Assembly (NCBI GenBank): GCA_034190545.1
Contig: JAXIOF010000039.1
Span: 1-64,000 of the forward strand
DNA length: 64,000 nt
Reading direction: 5' to 3'
Source: Candidatus Afararchaeum irisae
GTDB taxonomy: Archaea > Halobacteriota > Halobacteria > Halobacteriales > Afararchaeaceae
Position 1 is the stretch's first letter. Each line of letters starts with the position of its first letter. The position numbers and the translations under genes were made by a program. The notes beneath the pieces are model-generated. The model made no database searches. It saw only the letters and a list, made by a program, of their open reading frames with translations, and had not been told where the DNA came from. Shown piece by piece: positions 37,686-50,014 of this stretch.

Positions 37686-37763
37686 GCCGGTGCTTAGACC
37701 CGACACGACTTAACTTTTTACAGGCTAAGTCCCCTTCCTCAAGGAGTGTTGCGAATCACGTAT

Positions 37764-38136
37764 GAAAATCTCCGATTTTCAACACATCGCAGTCTGCTTT
37801 AGTAGACAAGAAGCGTTAACGAATCGCGTAGCGATTCGTTCGCACATCAGAACGCTTCGCGTTCTGAGGACGTTCAGAAATCAAAGATTTCCGAGCCATC
37901 AAACTCGTAGAGTTTGAGACGTTCGCTAATCTCCGATTAGCGAGCCAACGAGAGCAAAGCTCTCGTAACGTTCGTGAATCTAAGATTCACGGGTCTTCAG
38001 AAATCAGAGATTTCTGTGATGCAGAAAACTCGTAGAGTTTTCTAGCACAAGCAAATCGAAGATTTGCATACGCAGTAGGGAGGGGATACAGTCACAAATT
38101 CTTTGAATTCGTGGGTAGCAAGATCAGAGATCTTGC
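37764..38136. repeat. Array of triloop palindromes (thirteen hairpins)
   Basis: Thirteen short palindromes in 373 bp, almost all perfect stems of 6-10 bp around a 3-base centre. Start-end positions: 37764-37780, 37818-37840, 37847-37867, 37877-37891, 37899-37917, 37924-37942, 37948-37966, 37973-37991, 37998-38016, 38023-38043, 38051-38067, 38093-38113 (one mismatch) and 38118-38136. Many share the core AATC-NNN-GATT; others are AACTC-GTA-GAGTT, GAGAGC-AAA-GCTCTC and GAACGC-TTC-GCGTTC. Loops differ, stems differ, but the architecture is constant. There is no sustained reading frame. Confidence 0.9.
37870..37973. repeat. Tandem 49-bp two-hairpin units bounded by ACGTTC
   Basis: ACGTTC occurs at 37870, 37919 and 37968, exactly 49 bp apart. 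Each 43-bp interior is hairpin - CGAGCCA - hairpin. The stem sequences of the two units differ while the linker GAGCCA and boundaries are kept. This is the clearest copy of the element also seen at 38285 and 49063. Confidence 0.85.
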
Positions 38137-38140
38137 GACA

Positions 38141-38278
38141 GCCGTAAGCTATTTGCGTACTTGGTACTATTTCTAAGCATTGAGTACACAGGGGCACGGT
38201 GGAATTTACGCCTGTGGACACAGAACCTCTGTGGGCTTCACGGCTTATAAGTTCGTGGTGGAAGCAGGAACCTCCTAG
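38141..38278 (+). pseudogene. Decayed TnpB 3' end (IS200/IS605-type)
   Basis: Short peptides typical of haloarchaeal TnpB C-termini can be read in shifting frames: AVSYLR at 38141-38158, RGTVEFTPVDTEPL at 38190-38231, and KFVVEAGTS then stop at 38249-38278. Intervening stops and frame changes show it is broken. The catalytic RuvC-like part is absent. It lies between the hairpin array and an omega-RNA-like right end, which supports the reading. The call rests on recalled family patterns, not on an alignment. Confidence 0.5.
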
Positions 38279-38284
38279 AGGCTT

Positions 38285-38325
38285 CGCAAATCAAAGATTT
38301 GCGAGCCATCAAGCTCTGCTTGATG
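38285..38325. repeat. Two-hairpin palindromic element copy
   Basis: CGCAAATC-AAA-GATTTGCG (38285-38303), then linker GAGCCA overlapping CATCAAGC-TCT-GCTTGATG (38307-38325). Same architecture and linker as the 49-bp units. It lies just after the stop of the TnpB remnant and is partly flanked by CTTC at both sides. Confidence 0.85.
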
Positions 38326-38390
38326 ACTTCCAGAGAAGACCGCTCTGAGGTGAGGCCCAAAGAAGACGGCATCATGGTCAAATCGCTCTG

Positions 38391-47973: not shown

Positions 47974-49284
47974 ATGAGACTAAGCTGTCTCGGGGGTGCC
48001 CGCGAGGTCGGCAGGAGTGCGTTCCTTATCGACGACCTCCTCGTTGACTACGGAATGAAGACGGGCAACCCTCCCGAGTTCCCTCTTTCACGTGCCGACC
48101 CCGAAGAGGTCGTTATATCACACGGACATCTCGACCACGTCGGCGCGCTCCCGACCCTGATGCACGACTACCCATCCGTCCACCAGACACCTCCGACACG
48201 TAACCTCTCGGAGCTACTCGCCAACGACACTCTCAAGATTGCCCAGAGATCCGGGTCGTACAGAGCACCTTTCTCACGCGAGGACGTCTCACGTCTCTCG
48301 GAGGTCTCACGTCTCCACGGTTACGGAGACCGAGAGGGGTTCGAGGCGGCGGGCTTCGACTGTGACTTCCACCACGCTGGACATATACCCGGGAGTGCCT
48401 CGGTCAGGATCGACGACGGCGAGACGAGACTCCTCTACACCGGAGACATAAACACGACACAGACACGTCTCTTAGAAGCCGCTTCGCCGCCGCCTCCTGC
48501 AGACGCCCTAATGATCGAGAGCACCTACTTTAACTACGAACACGAAGACCGCGAGAAGGTTGAGGAAGAGTTCGTGAGGTCGGTGAGGGAGACCCTCCAC
48601 CAGGGCGGCGACGTACTGATACCCGTCTTCGCGATAGGACGCACTCAGGAGATTCTGATGGTGCTCGCCGAAAACGACATACCGTGTTATGTCGACGGAA
48701 TGGGCTGTGACGTCACGACTATACTCCGCGAACATCCCGACTACGTCCGTGATCCCGAGGCTCTCAAGAGAGCGTGGAACCACGCGAGAAAGGTCGACCC
48801 ATCGAAGAGAGACCGAGTTCTCGGAAACGGTGCAGCAGTCGTCACCACGAGCGGTATGCTCACGGGCGGACCCGCTATGTACTACATAAAAGGTCTCTTC
48901 GACAACCCCGCGAACAAGATCTGTCTTACGGGCTACCAGGTCGAGGGAACCCCCGGCAGGCGTGCACTCGATTCGAGCCGCGCTGAGATCGACGGCAAGA
49001 TACTCCCGATTTCGGCACAGGTCGAGCTACACGACTTCTCCGCCCACGCCGATGGCGACGGTACGAAATCTTCCGATTTCGTTAGCCAACGAGAGCAAAG
49101 CTCTCGTGACGGTCTCAAGTCATACGTCGAGAAGGCAGTCGAGAACGGGGTCGAGGAGGTTCTGTGTGTCCACGGCGACGAAGACGACTGTGTCGCCTTC
49201 GCTGAATGGGTCCGCGAGGATATCGGGGTCGAGGCGCACGCGCCGAAGCTCGGTGAAAAGGTCGAGATAGGTAAAATACGATGA
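47974..49284 (+). CDS. Beta-CASP metallo-beta-lactamase ribonuclease
   Basis: A 436-aa MBL/beta-CASP nuclease of the CPSF2/RNase J superfamily, without KH domains. Metal motif II is SHGHLDHVGALP; HHAGHIPGSASV, YTGDINTT, the beta-CASP motifs (VFAIGRTQE; TTSGMLTGGPAMYY; HDFSAHAD) and the final CVHGD are all present. It likely acts on RNA ends. Residues about 364-380 (TKSSDFVSQREQSSRDG) interrupt the expected SAHADGDGLKSYVEK and are encoded by a palindromic insertion (see 49057-49113). All catalytic residues lie outside the insert, so activity may be kept. Confidence 0.88.
   Translation: MRLSCLGGAREVGRSAFLIDDLLVDYGMKTGNPPEFPLSRADPEEVVISHGHLDHVGALPTLMHDYPSVHQTPPTRNLSELLANDTLKIAQRSGSYRAPFSREDVSRLSEVSRLHGYGDREGFEAAGFDCDFHHAGHIPGSASVRIDDGETRLLYTGDINTTQTRLLEAASPPPPADALMIESTYFNYEHEDREKVEEEFVRSVRETLHQGGDVLIPVFAIGRTQEILMVLAENDIPCYVDGMGCDVTTILREHPDYVRDPEALKRAWNHARKVDPSKRDRVLGNGAAVVTTSGMLTGGPAMYYIKGLFDNPANKICLTGYQVEGTPGRRALDSSRAEIDGKILPISAQVELHDFSAHADGDGTKSSDFVSQREQSSRDGLKSYVEKAVENGVEEVLCVHGDEDDCVAFAEWVREDIGVEAHAPKLGEKVEIGKIR
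49057..49113. mobile_element. In-frame palindromic insertion with 6-bp direct repeat
   Basis: GACGGT at 49057-49062 and again at 49108-49113 flanks a 45-bp insert (49063-49107) made of ACGAAATC-TTCC-GATTTCGT, linker TAGCCA, and ACGAGAGC-AAA-GCTCTCGT. Insert plus one repeat is 51 bp, so the host reading frame is preserved with 17 extra codons. Bases 49084-49107 are identical to 37943-37966 in the hairpin array. The direct repeat looks like a target-site duplication. Confidence 0.85.
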
Positions 49285-49667
49285 CAGGAGAGGGGCATTC
49301 GTACCTTAAAGCCGTCGTACTCGTAGGAGTAGGCGGATTCGCCGGTGCGGGTCTACGTTATGCCGTCTCGGCTTCTCTCGCATCGCCTCTCGGCACTCTC
49401 GCGGTCAACGTCGTTGGGAGCTTCCTCCTCGGCGTCGTGATGTATGAGTCTATCCACATAGGCTTCGTATCGAGGGAGTCACGTTACGTCGTCTCGACGG
49501 GATTTCTGTCGTCTCTCACGACTTACAGCACCTTTGGAGTTGAGACGTTTACACAGCCTACCGTCACGTATACAGTCGCCAATTTCGGAGCCAACTACGT
49601 CCTCGGTCTCACTGCGGTGTATCTCGGACGCGAACTAATCCTGAGAACAACGAGGTGTGATCGATGA
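49281..49667 (+). CDS. crcB1: Fluoride channel CrcB/Fluc, first paralogue
   Basis: A 128-aa protein with four membrane helices and the Fluc signatures GGFAGAGLRYAVS, VNVVGSFLLGVV and TGFLSSLTTYSTFGVET. Its start overlaps the beta-CASP gene stop by 4 bp (ATGA). It exports fluoride as a dimer with the adjacent paralogue. Confidence 0.93.
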   Translation: MTGEGHSYLKAVVLVGVGGFAGAGLRYAVSASLASPLGTLAVNVVGSFLLGVVMYESIHIGFVSRESRYVVSTGFLSSLTTYSTFGVETFTQPTVTYTVANFGANYVLGLTAVYLGRELILRTTRCDR

Positions 49668-50014
49668 GTTCTGTCCAGACCGCCTTACTCGTCGGCATCG
49701 GCGGTGCTATGGGGGCAGCCGCACGGTACTCGGTCTCGAGAGTAGTAAGCATGAGAGAGTTCCCTCTTTCGACCTTGGTCGTTAACGCCGTCGGGAGCTT
49801 CGTACTCGCACTCGTGACCTTCTCCGACGCCGGAAGCCAGCTAACACTTCTCGTCGGCACGGGAGCGTGTGGCTCCTTCACTACTTTCTCGTCGTTCTCG
49901 TTCGAGACCTTCCGTCTCTGGGAGACGGGCGAGAAACCACGGTCGGCTCTCAACGCCGCCGCCAATCTCGTTCTGTCGCTCACGGCTGTCTGGCTCGGAT
50001 CTATATTAGTATAG
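49664..50014 (+). CDS. crcB2: Fluoride channel CrcB/Fluc, second paralogue
   Basis: A 116-aa paralogue overlapping crcB1 by 4 bp. It has GGAMGAAARYSVSR, VVNAVGSFVLALV and GACGSFTTFSSFSFETF. Tandem pairs of this family typically insert in opposite orientations to form an antiparallel heterodimer. No fluoride riboswitch is seen upstream; the pair is coupled to the beta-CASP gene instead. Confidence 0.93.
   Translation: MSSVQTALLVGIGGAMGAAARYSVSRVVSMREFPLSTLVVNAVGSFVLALVTFSDAGSQLTLLVGTGACGSFTTFSSFSFETFRLWETGEKPRSALNAAANLVLSLTAVWLGSILV

Follow-up and report, generated by a model that had tools for sequence, protein, structure and literature searches.

Protein-coding palindromes that are retained in frame are known above all from Rickettsia, with parallels among the REPs of other bacteria. 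The Rickettsia palindromic elements (RPEs) are about 150 bp long (PMC10969869) and are dispersed palindromes found in frame in unrelated protein genes, where they are apparently tolerated (PMC10969869; passages of PMC3733652). According to the passages of PMC3733652, a survey of CGTC-tagged REPs, this class includes RPE-4 and RPE-6, and DNA-repair genes are frequent hosts of intragenic bacterial REPs; in these passages Archaea are mentioned only in a reference title. Among haloarchaea, the closest described systems are the IS605-derived PATEs and the SMR-A elements of Haloquadratum, which the passages of PMC3119063 present as non-coding, palindromic and devoid of a target duplication. PATEs reduced to their termini can be 52 bp long, and SMR-A elements target near-terminal palindromes of IS605-type elements (same passages). 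Inverted repeats are also retained inside functional protein genes in the mitochondria of Nematomorpha (PMC6649704).

The locus described here lies in a window of 64,000 nucleotides, the whole stretch of DNA analysed, from an assembly of Candidatus Afararchaeum irisae in 117 contigs. It resembles the RPEs in that a palindromic repeat is found in frame in several unrelated open reading frames, and differs in length and in architecture.

The insert in the nuclease gene

The features of the window that bear on the insert are as follows.

47974 to 49284, forward strand: host ORF, a KH-less beta-CASP/metallo-beta-lactamase ribonuclease of the aCPSF2 type, 436 aa
49057 to 49062, forward strand: left GACGGT; GACG is most likely the host target (Asp-Gly codons), and GT belongs to the host or the element
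49063 to 49082, forward strand: hairpin 1, ACGAAATC-TTCC-GATTTCGT, with a perfect 8-bp stem and a 4-nt loop
49083 to 49088, forward strand: linker TAGCCA; the family consensus is (T/G)AGCC, from a linker catalogue of hairpin pairs
49089 to 49107, forward strand: hairpin 2, ACGAGAGC-AAA-GCTCTCGT, with a perfect 8-bp stem and a 3-nt loop; it recurs in many chains of the genome
49108 to 49113, forward strand: right GACGGT, in which GA is read as the right end of the element, CG as shared and GT as host
37760 to 38136, no strand assigned: intergenic chain made up of roughly twelve family hairpins, from the hairpin scan and the sequence; the matches of the genome search include 37924-37966

The host protein carries the Pfam domains Beta-Casp, Lactamase_B and RMMBL and can be aligned with the aCPSF1 structures 2ycb and 3af5, minus their N-terminal ~180 residues. 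Its gene contains an insert of 51 bp in total, in which a 45-bp two-hairpin segment (49063-49107) sits between copies of GACGGT at 49057-49062 and 49108-49113. The ORF stays open across the insert, which supplies 17 codons (residues 364-380, peptide TKSSDFVSQREQSSRDG) directly C-terminal to the conserved FSAHAD motif. Translation of the ORF thus bore out the original prediction that the extra residues leave both the frame and the catalytic motifs intact. An AlphaFold2 model of the host protein built from three sequences was poor (mean pLDDT of 51, below 50 in the insert) and was kept out of the evidence.

The original prediction also held that orthologues should lack residues 364-380. Indeed, all 31 aligned orthologues from other haloarchaeal loci read FSAHAD-xxGL without extra residues, and most of them encode DGL at the insertion point. 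Since the motif runs uninterrupted into xxGL in these orthologues, the 51-bp segment is an in-frame gain in the lineage of the window, and its insertion is read as recent. An ancestral protein loop, the codons of which happen to form hairpins by chance, would fit the intact frame and the untouched catalytic motifs, but its absence from 31 of 31 orthologues refutes it, and closely similar sequences are found in non-coding chains of the same genome; we give this explanation practically no credence.

The insert folded better than 200 of 200 dinucleotide shuffles both as DNA (z of −4.1) and as RNA (z of −3.3). An Rfam search with the insert gave no match. The sequence, the fold statistics and the insert-free orthologues together confirm a palindromic two-hairpin element inserted in the nuclease gene, and very probably this insert is a copy of a mobile palindromic element of ~45 to 55 bp that is non-autonomous, consists of two hairpins and has its lengths filtered by the reading frame.

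Immediately downstream of the nuclease gene (window 49281-50014), two adjoining genes for small membrane proteins resemble, by eye, a CrcB/Fluc fluoride-channel pair.

A dispersed two-hairpin family

The single insertion noted originally belongs to a dispersed family that is far larger and reaches beyond the genome of the window. In its own genome the insert matched 13 further places, the best being 93% identical over 55 bp; over the element itself, the two best related copies have identities of 93% and 87-88%. Hairpin 1 recurs in copies at G000:C2 and G000:C70 of the same genome. A scan for hairpin chains returned 32 in 443 kb of this genome versus 1 in a first-order shuffled control, and 1 chain in the 122 kb of orthologue loci used as background. 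A covariance model built from 16 units gave at least 140 matches genome-wide at E up to 0.1, a lower bound for which 150 of 825 candidates were scored.

The typical unit reads GACGTT, hairpin, GAGCC, hairpin, GACGTT. Stems are of 7 to 10 bp, mostly 8 and 9, and almost all loops have 3 nt. The hairpin centers are spaced by ~25 bp, and alternate hairpins within a chain are most often 49 bp apart. Units are often concatenated, in chains that reach 15 hairpins. The intergenic chain at 37760-38136 is enclosed by apparent arms of an IS1341-type right-end palindrome, CCCCTTCCTCAAGGAG and CAGTAGGGAGGGG, and terminal palindromes of IS200/IS605 (TnpA/TnpB) elements are a common location of family copies. 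The region at 37737-38330 of the window has the appearance of an IS1341-type right-end remnant with family hairpins inside, and a homologous chain is found on contig C16 (L071 9128-9410).

Family matches (E up to 0.01) were obtained in 85 of 118 haloarchaeal genomes, at a density far below that of the genome of the window. Some of these haloarchaea carry the same GAGCC/GACG units, and others a sub-family with the order GTCGTT, hairpin, TGATCA, hairpin, GACGAC. In plasmid searches, 20 records could be matched to most of the length of the TGATCA sub-family, and the window's own element gave half-element matches only. Stem sequences are so variable that some of the distant matches may have arisen independently as hairpin repeats.

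The fold is maintained despite this variability. In 15 copies from named haloarchaeal plasmids, which were picked by sequence similarity and not by structure, 96.7% of the stem pairs are kept, and two-sided changes occur at 6 of 16 stem pairs, a value reached by 0 of 500 shuffles. The paired stems therefore covary. Moreover, the loops of co-oriented copies are often exact reverse complements of each other (TTC/GAA, TCC/GGA, AAA/TTT) while the linkers keep their orientation, which suggests inversion or rewriting of the hairpin tips. Loop flips are also seen between window positions 38051-38067 and the homologous L071 chain.

Insertions in other genes and the reading frame

Further in-frame copies, for which the original prediction had proposed a genome scan, were found in the genes for Hel308, CbiE, TnpA and TnpB. 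Comparison of a TnpB of the window's genome (C106) with the TnpB of G009, which is ~84% identical, revealed four clean reciprocal insertions, of 48 bp in the former and of 51, 45 and 51 bp in the latter, so that each allele provides the empty site of the other. The TnpA copies of the window's genome have 45- and 51-bp inserts that are missing from Halobaculum and Halorubrum plasmid copies; the 51-bp insert is also present in Natronorubrum daqingense. A different 54-bp TnpA insert occurs in Haloferax larsenii and Natrinema, and in H. larsenii it is in frame, the annotated tnpA having 453 bp versus 399 bp.

The Hel308 helicase gene (C43; L165 788-883) contains a chain of about six hairpins in frame between two helicase domains. 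This chain encodes roughly 45 to 50 extra residues and is lacking in 10 of 10 orthologues. In the cobalt-precorrin methyltransferase CbiE (C7), for which we infer the empty site, a 54-bp copy lies on the N-terminal side, and the C terminus of an MMPL-type transporter (C25; family assigned by eye) appears to run into a chain. The encoded peptides, for example RESEDSRAHQNAKRSGDV and RQSSIDYNRNQRFLE besides that of the nuclease, are hydrophilic but unlike one another. A small ORF with a zinc-finger-like CxC...CKH pattern (L227 1414-2118, G009:C5) holds two in-frame copies; its homologues are too weak to prove an empty allele. The second of these copies is preceded by GACGTT and followed by GACGGT, which is the expected pattern if the left TT is borne by the element and the right GT by the host. 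In the G+C-rich genomes G018 and G103, stop-free frames across hairpins are mostly fortuitous; such frames were left out of the insertion count.

Lengths were measured for nine inserts in coding contexts and came to 45, 48, 51 or 54 bp, all multiples of three (binomial p = 5e-5, an optimistic value since the nine were found partly through open frames). The cases based on orthologues and the reciprocal alleles of TnpB stand independently of this probability. Two of the nine belong to TnpA copies with a disruption elsewhere in the gene, and one of these two inserts contains a stop. Copies that break the frame were also found, one of 53 bp in an SDR gene of G036 and one of 55 bp in an ADH gene of G085 (both gene names by eye). 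These gene-breaking copies and the 49-bp spacing of alternate hairpins, set beside the nine multiple-of-three inserts, indicate that the frame acts on survival and not on insertion targeting. The extra peptide is presumably translated. An RNA intron was considered and set aside, there being no bulge-helix-bulge motif in the predicted fold; splicing is also disfavored because lengths in multiples of three would be needless if the insert were spliced out.

Element ends, movement and relation to known systems

Among 42 units with a GCC linker, most have conserved ends, with CG(T/G)T as the left and (G/A)ACG as the right terminus, and the outer bases are variable. The target core is CG. Given this consensus, the right GACG of the window's insert belongs to the element as its end, and the left GACG is the host target that matches it. 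The 6-bp repeat of GACGGT is therefore present as originally described, but its interpretation as a target duplication did not hold: on the best reading, one GACG comes from the host and the other from the element, GT being shared or borne by the sub-lineage. Indeed, where empty sites were seen or inferred, the overlaps range from 0 to 10 bp. In the sub-family of the window, direct repeats are of 6 bp (here), 6 bp (TnpB insert D), 10 bp, 3 bp (SDR) and 2 bp (ADH), and in other sub-families the overlaps are of 0 to 3 bp; any overlap is absent at TnpB insert A and at the TnpA insert of Haloferax. The SDR and ADH insertions brought in both the right-end GA and the left TT as new bases, so that only ACG or CG overlaps, and the copy at C29 has GACGGT on the left only.

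These ends bear on whether the insert is a cut-and-paste MITE moved by a DDE transposase that makes a 6-bp target-site duplication. Such an element would account for the perfect 6-bp repeat in the window and for GACGTT on both sides of the CbiE insert and of TnpB insert D, the empty allele of which has a single GACGTT. It is, however, at odds with an overlap that is not constant, with a right-end GA that is present although the SDR and ADH hosts have no GA, and with the lack of the usual terminal inverted repeats, each hairpin being self-contained. We regard this origin as improbable.

In the mechanism that we propose instead, a unit of the window's sub-family would be laid out as CG-(T/G)T, hairpin 1, AGCC linker, hairpin 2 and GA-CG. 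Its target sites would contain CG, often as GACG, and its insertion would produce no target duplication of constant length. New copies would land beside or inside older ones, giving rise to hairpin chains, and copies in genes would persist only when divisible by three in length and free of stops, adding 15 to 18 codons. An HUH-type enzyme, be it IS200/IS605 TnpA or any other, might move the element as a folded single strand of DNA; we put this forward tentatively. The enzyme that first comes to mind is a Y1 transposase, and the genome of the window has three PF01797 matches. Across the 118 genomes, the mean number of family matches did not differ with the presence of Y1 (PF01797), being 3.0 in genomes with it versus 3.07 in those without (p = 0.77). 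The agent responsible could be another enzyme, a transient transposase or template switching during replication.

A more specific version, in which the insert is a minimal IS200/IS605-derived, PATE-like element with its hairpins acting as left- and right-end recognition hairpins for a Y1 TnpA that moves single-stranded DNA, is possible but doubtful. The two hairpins, the recognizable flanking tetranucleotide, the lack of a fixed target duplication and a size of ~50 bp, close to the 52 bp of the terminal-only PATE of Haloquadratum (passages of PMC3119063), are in its favor, as are the Y1 TnpA genes of this genome. The stems, however, vary freely, and many copies occur in genomes without a Y1 match (22 in G018, and 12 each in G103 and G037). 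Moreover, whereas PATE palindromes are the IS605 ends themselves (same passages), family units seem, by eye, to lie within the palindromes at the right end of TnpB elements and not to match these as ends.

Template switching during replication at short GACG/CG homologies, with the unit copied from an existing chain and no transposase involved, is about as doubtful or slightly more so. It agrees with overlaps that vary from 0 to 10 bp, with the chains of units and their CG-centered junctions, and with the reverse-complemented loops of co-oriented copies, but a well-defined two-hairpin unit with conserved ends in many haloarchaeal genera points to a specific element.

The two-hairpin mobile element can be set against the described systems. 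Compared with SMR-A elements, which are ~110 bp long with terminal inverted repeats (passages of PMC3119063), the unit is ~50 bp long with two self-contained hairpins, although many family copies share the SMR-A location. As in PATEs, a target duplication is lacking in TnpB insert A and in the Haloferax TnpA insert; elsewhere it is inconstant. The passages of PMC3119063 on PATEs and SMR-A contain no in-frame coding insertions, and the first 50 kb of Haloquadratum plasmid PL100 proved free of chains.

The CGTC-tagged REPs, as presented in the passages of PMC3733652, share more traits with the family: an unpaired CGTC (that is, GACG) at one end, seen here as the right (G/A)ACG of most of the 42 units, stems of 8 to 9 bp, hairpin pairs, intragenic copies that include DNA-repair genes (compare the Hel308 chain), and no dedicated transposase. 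In contrast, REP loops have 4 to 5 nt and those of the family mostly 3, REPs have a CCA tail whereas the haloarchaeal linker is AGCC with no such tail on the tag strand, and clusters are rare in REPs but common here. The haloarchaeal tags are on both outer ends, and the stems are far more variable. In the Nematomorpha, the arms encode conserved protein sequence (PMC6649704), whereas the haloarchaeal inserts are added segments from a dispersed family.

The parallel with the RPEs drawn in the original prediction was upheld, since the family works like them, with in-frame copies in the unrelated genes for aCPSF2, Hel308, CbiE, TnpA and TnpB. It is set apart from them by measured features, namely, a length of 45 to 55 bp with two separate short hairpins instead of ~150 bp, peptides that are not one conserved peptide, and an archaeal host. 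No family of in-frame palindromes in Archaea came to light in searches of the open-access literature, and the haloarchaeal family is apparently undescribed; this novelty is provisional because subscription papers lay outside the search.

On balance, we lean toward the view that haloarchaea have a large two-hairpin family of their own, repeatedly inserted in frame in protein genes, among them those of essential-looking RNA- and DNA-processing enzymes, which would be the first protein-coding palindromic elements of Archaea. Their stems would be rewritten and their loops flipped while the fold is kept, and they would spread with neither a fixed target duplication nor a link to Y1 numbers. If this is true, the addition of peptides to proteins by selfish hairpin elements extends to another domain of life. 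Haloferax and other genetically tractable genera, with their filled and empty alleles, would then allow experiments on which enzyme mobilizes the element and on what becomes of the extra peptide.
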